A stretch of 34,206 nucleotides of DNA from Candidatus Omnitrophota bacterium. GTDB taxonomy: Bacteria; Omnitrophota; Gorgyraeia; Zapsychrales; Fredricksoniimonadaceae. The notes under the pieces were generated by a model that ran no database searches, was not told the origin of the DNA, and saw only the letters and a program-made list of their open reading frames with translations. Of the stretch, positions 1,827 to 31,916 are shown in pieces. A program made the position numbers and the translations under genes. Position 1 is the first letter of the stretch, and each line of letters opens with the position of its first letter. The stretch spans positions 1-34,206 of the forward strand of contig CAILQW010000040.1 in the NCBI GenBank assembly GCA_903836515.1, read 5' to 3'.

Positions 1827-2669
1827 CTATTCAACTGTGCTTTGCTCATTCACACTGCTTTGTTTCTTATCGAATATGAATTTATCTTTTTCCCATTTCC
1901 AAACAGTATACCTATCGCTTGGACAATCAGCATACGACCAGCCAGGCACATCAAGCTTACCAAAATAAATTTTAATTGCTGAAAGACGACCTCTACCATC
2001 TTTTAATTCATCTAGACCACACGCACTTCCAGCCGTAAATATCTTCTCCAATTTCTTATTATGAATTTTATATACGTCTAAATCTTGATGATGCGCGCCT
2101 CCCGTAGACCAAAAGAATATCTCACTAATGCCGTCAGAAGCAAGGTCATGTAATTCAAGTTTAGAGTAGTAATCATTGCCACTTAGATATTGAAGATACT
2201 TGAATTTTTCTCCGTTTTTCTTCCCCAATGCAATAAATGATGTCGGCACACTCACACTATCAGCAGTTCTAGCTTGAAAACCCACAACCACTAAACTATC
2301 AGATAAACTTAACGTTTGAGGGTCGCTCGTCGGATTGTATTGAAGCTTGTTGAAAGTAAAGGATGGTGTCACAATTTGATTATTTTTCTGCTCTAGAGAA
2401 GGGTAGAAACGATTCCCTGCAACGCCCCCATGAACAGTGTGAGCAAAATGCCAAATCTCAAAACTATTTTTGTGGTCATTCATGCATTGCTTTTGTGGTG
2501 TCGTCTTCTGATTACAAAGTTCGATGCCAAGACCTAATCCAGTAAAACGATTTCTAAGTAAAACATAATACGCATCATCATCCAGCCTTACATCGTAAAC
2601 GATAAGTATGATATTCAAAACAATCGAAAGAAATAAAGCCACAATAAACACTTTATTTGTTTTTAACAT
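1827..2669 (-). CDS. Hypothetical protein, N-terminal signal-anchor; extracytoplasmic domain with FG-GAP/VCBS-like segment
   Basis: Hydrophobic N-terminus KVFIVALFLSIVLNIILIVY; 'LHDLASDGISEIFFW' resembles D.(N)GDG.EI repeats. Confidence 0.6.
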   Translation of the reverse strand: MLKTNKVFIVALFLSIVLNIILIVYDVRLDDDAYYVLLRNRFTGLGLGIELCNQKTTPQKQCMNDHKNSFEIWHFAHTVHGGVAGNRFYPSLEQKNNQIVTPSFTFNKLQYNPTSDPQTLSLSDSLVVVGFQARTADSVSVPTSFIALGKKNGEKFKYLQYLSGNDYYSKLELHDLASDGISEIFFWSTGGAHHQDLDVYKIHNKKLEKIFTAGSACGLDELKDGRGRLSAIKIYFGKLDVPGWSYADCPSDRYTVWKWEKDKFIFDKKQSSVNEQSTVE

Positions 2670-2690
2670 CTTTTTTCATCCCTCTTAAAA

Positions 2691-3344
2691 TTATGACGAG
2701 CCACTTGAAGGAAGCACTTGCTCTTCTATTTTAATAATATACTCTGAAAGAGCCAAGTCTGTTGACGCCAACATTAGCCCAAAAGTAGCTTCTAAACAAA
2801 TCATATCCCAGTCTTCTTCTCGTTCTTTTCCAAAAACATGCTGCCAAAAGCATCTAGAGAGTCTTTCTGCAAAAAATGCATCAAACGGCAGTGTGGATTG
2901 GTAATCAAAGAACCTTCTGGTAAGGAGGATGTCTAATAAAACCTTGAAACTTACTCTTGCTTCTTCACCAACAGTGCATTCCCGTTTGAAAGAAACCAAC
3001 TCTTCTTGACCCTTTACAAAGTCTTTTAGCGAAAGCCCATGAATTTGATTAGTTTCTTCATATGCTTCGAGCGATTTGTATAAACCAACTTCGATTCCTT
3101 TGCATATTTCTTGACAATCATCGTGCTCGTAATGTAATTCACAAGTCACGCTTGCTTGCCAGAAACTAATTATATAAATGTCAAATAGACGTTTTAGCCT
3201 TGGAAACTTATTAAACTCAACAGCAGTCTCTTTGAAGTCTTCTTTATTCTCTAAAGAACAAACACTGTCATCAGCAAGAGTAAATATAAAGTGACAAATT
3301 GCCTCCGCCATCAATTCTGTATTTCTTGAGCGCCGTTTATTCAA
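2691..3344 (-). CDS. Hypothetical protein (217 aa)
   Basis: Complete ORF in a co-directional array; no recognised motif. Confidence 0.55.
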   Translation of the reverse strand: MNKRRSRNTELMAEAICHFIFTLADDSVCSLENKEDFKETAVEFNKFPRLKRLFDIYIISFWQASVTCELHYEHDDCQEICKGIEVGLYKSLEAYEETNQIHGLSLKDFVKGQEELVSFKRECTVGEEARVSFKVLLDILLTRRFFDYQSTLPFDAFFAERLSRCFWQHVFGKEREEDWDMICLEATFGLMLASTDLALSEYIIKIEEQVLPSSGSS

Positions 3345-3455
3345 TCGCCCACCTCATATAAAGTAAAAAACTCATACAATACATCCACCCTTTCACATCT
3401 TTTCCCTTGAGCCTAATCTCTTAAACAGATTAAATATGCCACCGAATCTTTATAA

Positions 3456-3923
3456 TTATTTTGACCACTCCCACCGCTCTCCATCTCTTAACAGCTCGTA
3501 GTAATTTCTTAAGTCTAAAGCTCTTTGTTTAACGATTCCTGCCTGTACATTAGCAAGAACATTTATATACATTGTCCCTTTAAGATTTCCGTATACAGCA
3601 CTAGCATTTTTAAACTCCGCATCTTTGAATATTACCCATTTTGACTGCGCATCATTCGCTATCTTTCTGTCCTTGTCGTTTAACAACGAGACTAACAATT
3701 TGTTGTATTTAACAACTTCTTTCTCCCATTCAGAGAGTGCCGCATAAGTGCAATTAGCCATCCCAGACGTTGTATAATCTTTTTCCATACACTTTGCTTC
3801 TTTAATATCAATCGGGAAATCATCAGCACCAAATGATTTATGAATTTGAAAGATACCAAGAAAAACACAAACAAATAAAATCATTCTTAAAGTTGCATCC
3901 ATAAAACCTTTCACTTTCGACAT
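3456..3923 (-). CDS. Secreted LprI-like/DUF1311 protein
   Basis: Signal peptide followed by 'C..KDYTTSGMANCTYAALSEWEKEVVKYNKLLVSLL...AQSKWVIFKDAEF', the DUF1311/LprI N-terminal domain pattern. Confidence 0.65.
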   Translation of the reverse strand: MSKVKGFMDATLRMILFVCVFLGIFQIHKSFGADDFPIDIKEAKCMEKDYTTSGMANCTYAALSEWEKEVVKYNKLLVSLLNDKDRKIANDAQSKWVIFKDAEFKNASAVYGNLKGTMYINVLANVQAGIVKQRALDLRNYYELLRDGERWEWSK

Positions 3924-3947
3924 GATTCTTCATCTTTCTTTTTCAAT

Positions 3948-4478
3948 TTATTTTATGTAGTTCCTCAAAGAAACATAAATATATAGAACCACGCCTATTA
4001 TTGAAGTAGTTAGCAAAAGATTAAAAACAATACGGTAAGCGTTCTTATCAGCTAACAGCTTTTTTCCTTTCCAAAACAAAAATAATGCTATTAAACCAAG
4101 AGGCACAGTGAACGCTACGAGCATCCCAATAAAAGAAAATATGCCATGAAATTCAAAACTCTTACTGCCAACCCCAAACCCCTCAGTTAATACCGCACGA
4201 ATAAGACCATACAATAAAACCAAGCTTCCCCAGCCGATATAACGTTTTCCCTTAATTTGAACTTTATCAACCTCGTTCTCGCTCATCTTTGCTTTTGGTC
4301 TTAATTCTTTTGGCTTATTTATTAAATCCTCTATGTTACGTCGTTTTGCCTCGTCCAGGAGCAGCCCATAAGCATCTTCTGTGTATTTACTCTTTCCTTC
4401 CGCTACTCTGTCCAAAATTTCATCGTCAGACATCCTAAGATAATTGTCTTTCAGTTGCACGTTTTTTTGTCCGTTCAT
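3948..4478 (-). CDS. Hypothetical membrane protein (about 3 TM helices)
   Basis: N-terminal 'MSDDEILDRVAEGKSKYTEDAYGLLLDEAKRRNI' cytosolic motif, then three hydrophobic segments. Confidence 0.6.
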   Translation of the reverse strand: MNGQKNVQLKDNYLRMSDDEILDRVAEGKSKYTEDAYGLLLDEAKRRNIEDLINKPKELRPKAKMSENEVDKVQIKGKRYIGWGSLVLLYGLIRAVLTEGFGVGSKSFEFHGIFSFIGMLVAFTVPLGLIALFLFWKGKKLLADKNAYRIVFNLLLTTSIIGVVLYIYVSLRNYIK

Positions 4479-4490
4479 AGCTAAATCCTT

Positions 4491-4781
4491 TTATGATTCA
4501 AACTTAACATTAAAACCATTTTTAAATTCCTTCCAAACAGCGTATTTAGGGAAAAACTCATTTTTCGTTGAAACAAGTCCATATGCTCTAAAGAATTTTA
4601 TAATTCCCCCAACGTAAGTTCCTGTTTTATCTATATTGAACACTTTCCCCACAGACGAAGAGTCACTGCCAAAATAAATTACAACAGCCCTATTTGTTCC
4701 GACTACTGACTTAATGTCCTTAGGCAGTCTTAAAATTTGAGCCCTAATATCGTTGTGAGATACAAATTTTCTCATTTTCAT
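4491..4781 (-). CDS. Hypothetical protein
   Basis: ORF 4491..4817; start MKMRKFVSHND preferred (AAAGG upstream). No recognised domain. Confidence 0.45.
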   Translation of the reverse strand: MKMRKFVSHNDIRAQILRLPKDIKSVVGTNRAVVIYFGSDSSSVGKVFNIDKTGTYVGGIIKFFRAYGLVSTKNEFFPKYAVWKEFKNGFNVKFES

Positions 4782-5014
4782 AATCTGAAGACCTTTAAAT
4801 GCTTTTAATTGTAGCATAGAAGACGCTACGCTTAATATCCAATGCTTTGATTTTGGTGTCTTTGTGGTGTCTTAGAGATTGAGCTTTGAAGTGAATAATT
4901 GCAAAAAATAATAAATCATCAACACACAACATTAGTGTTGTCTGTTAAGTATTCCGTCGATGATATTTTATTTATTGAAATTGCGTAGAAGAGATAAAAA
5001 GAAGTCTAATTCGT

Positions 5015-5053
5015 TCCCAAAGCAAGTGCGCTAGCCAGCTGCGCCACTTCCCG
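5015..5053 (-). tRNA. Truncated tRNA-Pro(UGG): 5' half only
   Basis: Minus strand CGGGAAG TG GCGC AGCTGGCTA GCGC A CTTGC TTTGGGA: acceptor 5' strand, paired D-arm, 5' anticodon stem and loop with TGG. The following bases (ACGAATTAG) do not form the 3' anticodon stem (GCAAG expected), and no T-arm follows. Confidence 0.75.
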
Positions 5054-5131
5054 TTCGAAAACTTGAACCCTCAGCATCACCGTCAACGGGGTTTTAGCCA
5101 GTCCCAGCCCCGGGGGGGCCGGGATTTCCTC
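5039..5131. repeat. Direct repeat copy 1 (93 bp, period 123)
   Basis: ctgcgccacttcccgttcgaaaacttgaaccctcagcatcaccgtcaacggggttttagccagtcccagccccgggggggccgggatttcctc; overlaps the tRNA 5' end. Confidence 0.95.
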
Positions 5132-5153
5132 GCCCCGCTTCTATTCGCGGGGC
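5132..5153. other. Perfect hairpin between repeat copies (GCCCCGC/GCGGGGC, 8-nt loop)
   Basis: gccccgc ttctattc gcggggc read directly. Confidence 0.7.
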
Positions 5154-5161
5154 TTCGGTCA

Positions 5162-5254
5162 CTGCGCCACTTCCCGTTCGAAAACTTGAACCCTCAGCAT
5201 CACCGTCAACGAGGTTTTAGCCAGTCCCAGCCCCGGGGGGGCCGGAATTTCCTC
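5162..5254. repeat. Direct repeat copy 2 (about 2 mismatches to copy 1)
   Basis: Same sequence as 5039-5131 with gaggttt for ggggttt and ggaattt for gggattt; also contains the first ~15 nt of the tRNA. Confidence 0.95.
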
Positions 5255-5319
5255 ACTAAAACCCTTAAGAGACGTTATTTATACCAGACTTTCTGCAGGA
5301 TGTCGAGAAGAGTTGCCCT

Positions 5320-5904
5320 CTATTTCCCGAAAAACTCTTCCAGGCCCTTTTGACTGGGCTTCATAGAACGATCTCCCGCACGCCAGTTGGCAGGACACAC
5401 TTCCCCGTTCTTCTCGAAGAACTGCAACGCCTCAACCATACGCAGCGCTTCATCCACACTGCGCCCAAGCGGCAGGTCATTGACAAGCTGATGCCGCACC
5501 ACACCGTTTTTATCGATCAGAAAAAGCCCGCGGTACGCGATCCCCTGCCCCTCGACCAGCACATCGTAATCCCGTGAAATGGCCTTGTTGATGTCGGACA
5601 CAATAGGATAATGCACCCCTTCAATGCCCCCGCGCACCTTGGGCATCTTAAGCCAGGCCAGATGGCTGAAATGGGAATCCACGCTGACGGCCACCACAAC
5701 CGTATCGCGCTTCTTGAATTCCTCGAGCTTCTGCGCAAAAGCATGGAGCTCGGTCGGACATACGAAGGTAAAATCCAGTGGATAAAAAAAGAGCACCACA
5801 TACTTGCCCCTGAACTGGCTTAAGGTAAACCCCTCGATCACCTTGTCTTCCTGGACAGCGACGGCCTTGAAATCAGGCGCCTGTTTACCAACGAGTACTG
5901 ACAT
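5320..5904 (-). CDS. Typical 2-Cys peroxiredoxin (AhpC/Prx family)
   Basis: FYPLDFTFVCPTELHAF peroxidatic Cys motif and EVCPANW resolving Cys motif. Confidence 0.95.
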   Translation of the reverse strand: MSVLVGKQAPDFKAVAVQEDKVIEGFTLSQFRGKYVVLFFYPLDFTFVCPTELHAFAQKLEEFKKRDTVVVAVSVDSHFSHLAWLKMPKVRGGIEGVHYPIVSDINKAISRDYDVLVEGQGIAYRGLFLIDKNGVVRHQLVNDLPLGRSVDEALRMVEALQFFEKNGEVCPANWRAGDRSMKPSQKGLEEFFGK

Positions 5905-28969: not shown

Positions 28970-29003
28970 GAAAAGCGCCGCCCCGTTTTATCAGGGCGGC
29001 GCC
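28970..29003 (-). terminator. Rho-independent terminator downstream of rpsU
   Basis: Minus strand GCGCCGCCC-TGATAAAACG-GGGCGGCGC followed by TTTTCTTT. Confidence 0.85.
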
Positions 29004-29344: not shown

Positions 29345-30622
29345 CTACCAGGAAATGATTTTCCTGAAAAACGTGACCGCAGGGGACAGCAGCAGCATGC
29401 CCGTCAATACGATCAGCAGGATCGTTGTGGACCAGCCGATAAAATTCTGGAATTTATTGTTCACATGCGTCCCCATGACATAGGGGCTGTTGACCATATA
29501 GATCATGGATAAAAGAACAACGGGAAGCAGCATGGCATTGATCACCTGGGTCCAGATAGTTATGGTGATCAGCGGGGCGTTAGGCCACAGGATGATCCCC
29601 ACGGCTACCGCGATGATGCTGCCAAAAAGCCAGTAGAATTGCGGCGCCTCATCCACACGCTTGTCAATACCGGCTTCAAACCCGAAGGCTTCGCACACAT
29701 AGAACGCGGTGGCCAGGGGAAGGATCGTCGCGGAAAACGCCGAAGCGATAAAAAGACCGAAAGCGAAGACCTGCGAGGCCAGGACGCCGGCAAAAGGCTT
29801 GAGGGCCATGGCCGCATCGCTGGCTTCCCTGATCACCACGCCGTTCTTGTTCAATGTCGCTGCACAAGCCACCATGATAAAAAAAGCAACCACCACCGTG
29901 GCCGTACATCCGATCACCACATCCAGAAAAGCAAATTTATAATCCTTGATCGTGATGCCCTTCTCAATGACCGCTGACTGCATATAAAACTGCATCCAGG
30001 GTGCAATGGTGGTCCCGATAATCCCAAGAACAATGCTCAGATATTCTCCGCTGAATTTGGCATGCGGATGCACTAAGGCCGTACTGATCTCCCGCCAATC
30101 AGGCTTGGCCATAACCGCAGAAATGATATAAAACAACAGACAAAAACTAAAAAACAGGAAAATCCTCTCGGCGATCTTGTAATTGCCCTTAGTCGCCAGG
30201 ATCCATACCGCTATAGCGGTCAGAGGGACGGATATGTACTTGCTGACCCCGAAAATGTCCATACTGCCCGCCACCCCCGCAAACTCGGTGGCCGTATTAC
30301 CGATATCCGCAATGATAAGGCCCAGAAAAATGAACGCGGTTACCTTGACACCGAAATTTTCCCGGATAAGGTCCGCCAGCCCTTTACCCGTGATGACGCC
30401 CATGCGCAGATTCATTTCCTGGATGACCAGAAGAGCGATAAATGAGGGAATAAGTGTCCAAAGAAGATTGTAGCCGTACAGGGCGCCGGCCACGGAGTAT
30501 GTTGTAATACCACCAGCATCATTGTCCACACTGCCGGTCACGATCCCGGGACCCAGAATGGCCAAAAACATGACAAGGTTCCTGGCGGCCGGACTGTTTT
30601 TTAAATTCTCAATGATACGCAT
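29345..30622 (-). CDS. NRAMP-family divalent cation transporter, divergent (possible Mg-type/NRMT-like)
   Basis: GPGIVTGSVDNDAGGITTYSVAGALYGYNLLW (NRAMP TM1 with DAGG in place of DPGN); LGIIGTTIAPWMQFYMQSAV (TM6, MPHN-motif Met replaced by Ala); start at MRIIENLKN. Confidence 0.88.
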   Translation of the reverse strand: MRIIENLKNSPAARNLVMFLAILGPGIVTGSVDNDAGGITTYSVAGALYGYNLLWTLIPSFIALLVIQEMNLRMGVITGKGLADLIRENFGVKVTAFIFLGLIIADIGNTATEFAGVAGSMDIFGVSKYISVPLTAIAVWILATKGNYKIAERIFLFFSFCLLFYIISAVMAKPDWREISTALVHPHAKFSGEYLSIVLGIIGTTIAPWMQFYMQSAVIEKGITIKDYKFAFLDVVIGCTATVVVAFFIMVACAATLNKNGVVIREASDAAMALKPFAGVLASQVFAFGLFIASAFSATILPLATAFYVCEAFGFEAGIDKRVDEAPQFYWLFGSIIAVAVGIILWPNAPLITITIWTQVINAMLLPVVLLSMIYMVNSPYVMGTHVNNKFQNFIGWSTTILLIVLTGMLLLSPAVTFFRKIISW

Positions 30623-30623
30623 G

Positions 30624-31916
30624 TCAAATCTGGTCCTTGTATTTTCCCCAGGCCATAGCGATAAGCTCTTCCATAACGTCATCCACCGTGATCGACCCCA
30701 CCAGAATGTCATTCTCGTCAAGCACGGGAATAGCCGAATATTTATACTGCTCGATCAGGACCGCGACTTTTTCCATCCCGTCATCGGTCCGGACAAAAAC
30801 CTTCTGCGGATGACATGTGTTAACGATGGGGCGATCGAAAGGTTCGTTGATAAAACGCCGGATCGTGGTGGTCCCGGCATAGCGGCCCTGATCATCAATG
30901 ATATAGATCGTGTTGAAACTTCCCGGGTAATCGACCGAAGCCTTCAACTTGTTCATGGCATCCGCCACCGTCGCATTCAGACCAAGGCTCAGGAATTCTG
31001 TAGCCATAAGCCCACCGGCGGAATTCCTGCGAAACCCCAAAAGCGTACGCAAGCGCTTGGACGCCTGGGATTCCATCTGGCGCATCAACTGCTGAACACG
31101 GTCGCGCGGAATGCTCATCAGAAAGTCCGCGGCTTCGTCAGAAGGGATGTTAGCGATGATCTGGACAAGCTCCCTGTCCTCCAGGAGACCCACCAGGCCA
31201 GCCTTGTCGTCCGGCGCCATATCTGCAAAAACTTTTAACTGCACATCAAAGGTCAAGGAGCGAAAAACAGAGACCTGTTCGAAAATATCCAGGTCACGCA
31301 TAATATCCGCCAGAAGAACCGGCGGGATCTTCGCGATCTTGGCACGCGCAACATCAAGCTTGAGCACATTTTTCTGATTACCCAGCGTCAAAACCTGGGA
31401 ATTCTTCCAGGAAACGAGTTCTTCGGCCTTCAGATAATCCGCATCAGGACGAAAAAATTTAACCAACAGATCGACCACCGGCTCCAGGTCAAGGCGGCGC
31501 ACCAGCGCCCTCAGGCCGACATCAACATGCGCGATATGGTACTGGTTGTCAACCCGAAGGATATGGACATCGTTGACACGGACCACCTTCTTGTTTTCAA
31601 CATCCACAACCTGCTGGTCCAGCACATCACGCCGAAGCGCGAACTCGCTGACAATCTTGACATCCTGGAATGTAACGGCGGCAATAGGAATCTTCAGGTC
31701 AACCTTGCCATCAATGCGCAGGACGTCTGCCAGGGCGACTTCCGCATAACGACGGGGAAACCCAGCCGTACACACAATGACGCCCTTGGCCCGGGGATAA
31801 ATATCATTATTGAGAGCCATGGAAAAATCATAAAATCTTCCGATGGACCGGCCATCCCGGTCCAGGACTGGCTTGCCCAGCAATTCGGAAAGATAAACAA
31901 AAAACTGCTCACCCAT
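30624..31916 (-). CDS. Soluble protein with PRC-barrel-like N-terminus, MgtE N-domain and CBS pair (no TM channel domain)
   Basis: LGKPVLDRDGRSIGRFYDF; ADMAPDDKAGLVGLL...IPSDEAADFLMSIP...; RNSAGGLMATEFLSL; ends after the second CBS (VDDVMEELIAMAWGKYKDQI) without hydrophobic helices. Confidence 0.85.
   Translation of the reverse strand: MGEQFFVYLSELLGKPVLDRDGRSIGRFYDFSMALNNDIYPRAKGVIVCTAGFPRRYAEVALADVLRIDGKVDLKIPIAAVTFQDVKIVSEFALRRDVLDQQVVDVENKKVVRVNDVHILRVDNQYHIAHVDVGLRALVRRLDLEPVVDLLVKFFRPDADYLKAEELVSWKNSQVLTLGNQKNVLKLDVARAKIAKIPPVLLADIMRDLDIFEQVSVFRSLTFDVQLKVFADMAPDDKAGLVGLLEDRELVQIIANIPSDEAADFLMSIPRDRVQQLMRQMESQASKRLRTLLGFRRNSAGGLMATEFLSLGLNATVADAMNKLKASVDYPGSFNTIYIIDDQGRYAGTTTIRRFINEPFDRPIVNTCHPQKVFVRTDDGMEKVAVLIEQYKYSAIPVLDENDILVGSITVDDVMEELIAMAWGKYKDQI

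Follow-up and report, generated by a model that had tools for sequence, protein, structure and literature searches.

The locus described here raises the question of whether a soluble, MgtE-like protein with no channel of its own could control magnesium import through a transporter of another family, encoded by the adjoining gene. The locus lies in a stretch of 34,206 nucleotides from a Candidatus Omnitrophota bacterium, which is called the window below. The gene pair and the idea of feedback are known in kind, since both were published by Shin et al. (2014; PMC4072509); the first-pass annotation of the window allowed that similar pairs might already be annotated. In the available text of that paper, most NrmT genes adjoin a homologue of the N-terminal cytoplasmic domain of MgtE, the "MgtE cytosolic fragment", the pair is often placed behind a single M-box riboswitch, and cytoplasmic feedback regulation is proposed for the MgtE-like partner. 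Among the papers available, a search for later work on this partner found none. What is added here, from comparisons across related genomes, is that the transporter has been exchanged several times under a retained sensor.

The sensor gene and the adjoining transporter gene

The sensor gene (P0001; 30624 to 31916, minus strand) starts with ATG and encodes a soluble protein of 430 amino acids. Searches with Pfam gave a PRC match at residues 7-31 (22.9 bits against a gathering threshold of 21.2), MgtE_N at residues 199-296 (64.8 bits) and two stretches of CBS (54 bits), while no match to the five-helix MgtE channel domain PF01769 was obtained in P0001. The open reading frame, the Pfam matches and the structural model all agree with the first-pass description of a 430-residue protein with a PRC-like start, an MgtE N domain and a CBS pair, ending without a channel. 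As to the limits of the gene given there, 31916 was correct, whilst 30620 was not, as it overlaps the start codon of the next gene.

An AlphaFold2 model of P0001, built with 65 relatives, reached a mean pLDDT of 85.5 and a pTM of 0.47, and because of the latter value the arrangement of the domains relative to each other is uncertain. In the model two beta-rich modules (residues about 1-92 and 93-187) are followed by the MgtE N domain, which is helical (189-293), and then by the CBS pair (300-415); the chain finishes with a helix at residues 411-429. The MgtE_N domain, placed at residues 189-296 (31029 to 31352, minus strand), and the CBS pair, placed at residues 300-420 (30657 to 31019, minus strand), were both delimited from Pfam, alignment and conservation, for the former with 2yvx as the aligned structure. 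Together they superimpose on the solved cytosolic domains of MgtE with an rmsd of 2.0-2.5 A, and with TM-scores of 0.81-0.90 on soluble targets. The C-terminal helix (30630 to 30686, minus strand) is positioned like the plug helix of MgtE and, on that ground, is probably its equivalent.

The N-terminal PRC-like region (residues 1-187; 31356 to 31916, minus strand) is absent from the MgtE channels compared. A PRC match was found by Pfam in 64 of the 65 relatives of P0001, and the majority of the residues that are invariant in the sensor family sit in this region (D30, D100, D105, D116, D132, R141 and W170), which we regard as a candidate docking part onto the transporter. Known fold relatives of the region were also sought by sequence; no credible match in the PDB was obtained, and residues 96-185 submitted alone had no Pfam match.

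The residues of the Mg2+ sites were compared in an alignment of P0001 with TtMgtE (2yvx), in which the numbering was anchored with the help of sites given in PMC5882242 and PMC5529423. D91, D95 and D247 of TtMgtE correspond to D260, D264 and D413 of P0001, and the three are kept in all 61 of 61 close relatives. In MgtE, closure is stopped by D91A/D247A and by D95A (PMC5882242). Two Mg-site residues are lost in P0001, E59 being replaced by K228 and D226 by K392; the D250 position is occupied by glutamate, and the ATP-site residues D188 and N203 of MgtE are not kept.

The transporter gene nrmT (P0002; 29345 to 30622, minus strand) encodes an NRAMP-related protein of 425 amino acids, predicted to be a magnesium transporter, with a Pfam Nramp match of 307.8 bits. 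Among solved structures EleNRMT (7qia) is its closest match, at 355.8 bits, and the best MntH scored 88.5 bits. In the alignment P0002 carries D55, G58, E133, T224, A227 and Q379 at the respective columns of EleNRMT, including the metal-site motifs DAGG in TM1 (EleNRMT D55 to G58; 30509 to 30520, minus strand) and TTIA in TM6 (EleNRMT T224 to A227; 30002 to 30013, minus strand). The metal site is thus of the form DxxG-TxxA and not DxxN-AxxM, and there is no histidine in the TM6b stretch APWMQFYMQSA. The NRMT signature includes the DxxG-TxxA/T site, E133, Q379 and replacement of the proton-path histidines of TM6b (PMC8806188, available text), and by these sequence features P0002 is assigned to the NRMT type.

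The sensor stop codon ends at 30624 and the nrmT ATG begins at 30622, so the genes are separated by 1 nt, the distance stated in the first-pass annotation. The neighbours are housekeeping genes, named from their translations, with mnmG and nth upstream and purH, folC and mnmE downstream; a terminator-like hairpin (28974 to 29003, minus strand) was placed between nrmT and purH by a consensus pattern scan only. Neither an M-box nor any other Rfam element was detected in the window at the Rfam gathering cut-offs. Base composition gave no sign of a recent transfer of nrmT, its GC3 of 0.653 being inside the range of the neighbours.

Conservation of the pair

The co-occurrence survey suggested with the first-pass annotation was carried out on 386 Omnitrophota genomes, and the NRMT neighbourhoods were taken from Omnitrophota genomes and the window. 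Among 77 loci with readable flanks the sensor adjoins NRMT in 75, always on the same strand (opposite strand, 0), with the sensor before the transporter in 68 loci and after it in 7. The other neighbourhoods comprised three at contig edges, one whose transporter is a more distant Nramp, and two without a neighbouring sensor. Such adjacency is far beyond chance. The loci of reversed order have transporters of a separate clade, which share about 36% identity with P0002. The combination first proposed for the window, in which a cytosolic module of MgtE type is paired with an NRMT-like transporter, holds as a conserved arrangement, and the NRMT part of it is carried by the EleNRMT match and the metal-site motif. 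The Mg-dependent gating in trans put forward with it is a hypothesis. The first-pass annotation noted the PRC-like start; the concentration of invariant residues there, the lack of MgtE and CorA matches in the host genome and the swapping of the transporter go beyond it.

The distribution of the pair is complementary to that of MgtE channels. NRMT is present in 77 of the 81 genomes that have MgtE_N but no strong match to the MgtE channel, and the channel itself was found in 5 of 83 NRMT genomes as compared with 184 of 303 others (Fisher p 5e-21, uncorrected for phylogeny and too small because the genomes are related). A weaker trend was seen for CorA (21/83 against 130/303). The host genome, which is 96% complete, has one Nramp and one MgtE_N, and no match to the MgtE channel or to CorA was obtained in it. 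It also encodes a P-type ATPase whose score of 306 bits falls short of the 610.75 set as cut-off for MgtA, so that another Mg route in the host is possible. Several related genomes have a separate high-scoring Nramp besides NRMT, which is probably MntH.

Three loci of the survey deserve a record of their own. One genome (L144), without a match to MgtE_N, MgtE channel or CorA, has two divergent Nramp genes close together, 24% and 29% identical to P0002. In another (L114, 2899-4140) the metal-site aspartate of the NRMT is changed (NNSAG versus NDAGG); its branch is among the longest, and the function is possibly altered. Downstream of a third NRMT locus (L127) there are two tandem cobalamin riboswitches (390-1048).

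The pair is seen repeatedly, in either gene order, and was also found on plasmids of Bacillota, Pseudomonadota and Actinomycetota. In the Omnitrophota loci that were sampled, neither an M-box nor another RNA element was found ahead of the pair; an M-box is present at the plasmid loci of Alicyclobacillus (L147) and Pseudarthrobacter (L149). On the Alicyclobacillus fastidiosus plasmid the M-box (145 bits) precedes an operon of sensor and transporter, the latter 65-68% identical to P0002, and the pair is flanked by recombinase and transposase genes. The Pseudarthrobacter plasmid is conjugative, and there the M-box is followed by nrmT and then by the sensor, in reversed order (2137-5571). The neighbours of a transporter-sensor pair on a Citrobacter IncHI1B conjugative plasmid (L148, 619-6680) are a heavy-metal P-type ATPase and an ArsR regulator, and a Tn3 transposase is encoded close by.

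Exchange of the transporter

For the most part, the branching of the sensor tree reflects host families. The transporters fall into two clades, A and B, and the window transporter is in clade B. A sensor lineage of its own goes with clade B (L117, L123, L124, L126-L129). In three families, f1, f6 and f13, clade B transporters are found beside sensors of the local clade A lineage; the own-lineage sensors are about 28% identical to these, although the transporters concerned are 75% identical on average. Placing the f1 transporters in one clade was rejected (log-likelihood 240 lower, p-AU 9e-40), and so was placing the B-partnered sensors in one clade (log-likelihood 1254 lower, p-AU 2e-33), both on quick trees and with groups named after the trees were seen. 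By parsimony, the transporter type changes 9 times on the sensor tree as compared with once on the transporter tree. These results point to at least three in-place exchanges of the transporter, one per family.

The same is seen in pairs of loci from one genus. Between the window and L101 the identities are 70% for mnmG, 71% for nth, 71% for the sensor and 82% for purH, with 52% for the transporter. L135 and L111 gave 89, 79, 75 and 86% for the same four genes and again 52% for the transporter, and in L122 and L083 the sensor is 81% and the downstream genes 79 and 83% identical, with a transporter identity of 52%. Within one genus (L117, 1601-4164, against L070) both genes of the pair were replaced in the slot, the flanks being 63-81% identical. 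Two genomes, G199 and G285, keep the resident sensor beside nth without a transporter (L158, 4413-5702, and L159, 4410-5705, respectively), and the only NRMT found in each is of clade B and is located elsewhere (L131 and L113), without an adjoining sensor. Binning or assembly artefacts were rejected as the source of the swaps, because in several independent genomes one and the same contig holds sensor, transporter and flanking genes.

No sensor residues were found to change in parallel with transporter type above the level of shuffles (maximum 1.40; null 95% 1.65), and as there is no convergent change after exchange, no contact surface is indicated. Since the sensor is kept while half of the transporter residues change, regulation would use features common to both transporter types, or there would be no tight interface. 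The first about 17 residues of the swapped transporters resemble the local type in f6 and f13, with identities of 0.28 and 0.30 to A of the same family versus 0.20 and 0.12 to B with its own sensor. This retention of the N-terminal tail was dismissed as evidence for docking, since it fails in f1 and could result passively from a breakpoint in the conserved TM1.

Proposed feedback on magnesium uptake and the alternatives

We consider it probable, with moderate confidence, that the locus serves Mg2+ uptake by NRMT with feedback from the soluble MgtE-type sensor. The sensor and nrmT would then form one magnesium-uptake unit, with the NRMT-type importer probably as a main entry route of Mg2+ in the host bacterium. 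The soluble protein would be the MgtE cytosolic Mg2+ sensor minus the channel, plus the PRC-like N-terminal region. High cytosolic Mg2+, presumably bound by the sensor, would bring its N and CBS domains into a closed state, in the manner of MgtE. In that state the sensor would slow the import while bound to the transporter from the cytosolic side. The closeness of P0002 to EleNRMT, the MgtE-like fold of the sensor with its three kept aspartates, the conserved adjacency, the complementarity with MgtE channels, the host without MgtE or CorA matches and the M-box of the Alicyclobacillus operon speak for this reading. Against it speak the lysines at the E59 and D226 positions, the window without an M-box or other Rfam element, the sensor without convergent change after exchange and, from Shin et al. 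(PMC4072509), the co-expression result, the full rescue of Mn uptake by the A. capsulatum NrmT and the Mg transport by C. acetobutylicum NrmT in the absence of the partner.

The opposite sign of effect, in which the sensor is a positive partner that serves NRMT as a subunit for stability, activity or delivery in a chaperone-like manner, seems unlikely to us, though it deserves some weight. Sensor and transporter are nearly inseparable, the PRC-like region holds most of the invariant residues, and PRC-like modules are often protein-contact domains. Chaperone activity is also offered as an option in Shin et al. (2014; PMC4072509, available text), whereas the same source reports that two NrmTs of Clostridium acetobutylicum transported Mg in B. 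subtilis without the partner gene, and purified EleNRMT showed activity in liposomes on its own (PMC8806188, available text). The only co-expression test, with the MgtE-like gene of Acidobacterium capsulatum expressed together with NrmT, did not improve the rescue of the Mg-transport defect any further (PMC4072509, available text); this null result weighs less against feedback inhibition, because such a growth-rescue assay would not reveal an inhibitor. The A. capsulatum protein also bears on the ion in question, being according to the same text mainly a Mn importer that rescued Mn uptake fully and better than Mg, although it stands beside an MgtE fragment. With the reversed-order plasmid pairs that adjoin a heavy-metal P-type ATPase and ArsR, this favours a pair that handles Mn2+ or another divalent ion, which the MgtE-like module would sense. 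We hold this to be quite unlikely in view of the complementarity with MgtE channels, a host without MgtE and CorA matches, the separate Nramp, probably MntH, in several related genomes, and the M-box before a close relative of P0002, an element treated as a mark of Mg specificity by Shin et al. (PMC4072509, available text).

That the adjacency reflects positional inertia, with a sensor that regulates something else and merely shares the operon, is in our judgement very improbable. The two genomes with the sensor in the slot and NRMT elsewhere could be read in this way, as could the swaps that left no detectable change in the sensor; yet both genes are still present in these two genomes, sensor genes without a channel are hardly ever seen where NRMT is missing, and the pair recurs in both orders, also on plasmids of three phyla.

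Within the feedback reading, we tentatively suggest, as a possibility that we would not yet favour, that the sensor is a portable regulator, whose PRC-like region docks on features common to NRMTs that are about 50% identical, so that Mg2+ feedback would survive an exchange of the transporter in place, or its supply from a different locus. If true, the fused sensor of MgtE would have here a counterpart that acts in trans and is exchangeable. The question bears on how NRMT importers avoid overloading cells with Mg2+, and the repeated exchange of the importer under a retained sensor makes the putative role of the latter easier to probe: the exchanges are natural matched sets, with the same sensor lineage and two transporter types in one genus, and they reveal which part evolution holds constant and which can vary.

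In CorC/CNNM and other CBS-regulated transporters a CBS pair acts as the cytosolic ligand sensor. P0001 has a CBS pair as well, but in those systems it is fused to, or in complex with, a different transporter fold, and there is no MgtE_N. MgtE itself (TtMgtE; 2yvx, 2yvy) shares with P0001 the N and CBS fold and the equivalents of D91, D95 and D247; P0001 differs by the absent channel domain, the extra PRC-like N-terminus, the lysines in place of E59 and D226, and the loss of D188 and N203. EleNRMT of Eggerthella lenta (7qia), about 45% identical to P0002, has the same SLC11/NRAMP fold and DxxG-TxxA site, but was studied alone as a purified protein, with no sensor partner mentioned in the available text (PMC8806188), whereas P0002 adjoins a sensor. 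Compared with the nrmT/MgtE-fragment operons of C. acetobutylicum (CA_C0685) and A. capsulatum, the window lacks the M-box, which is present in only a subset there, its sensor, which includes a PRC-like region, is encoded by one gene, and exchange of the transporter under the sensor is not described in the available text (PMC4072509). The feature that these operons have in common with the window is a gene for a soluble MgtE N domain adjoining nrmT.
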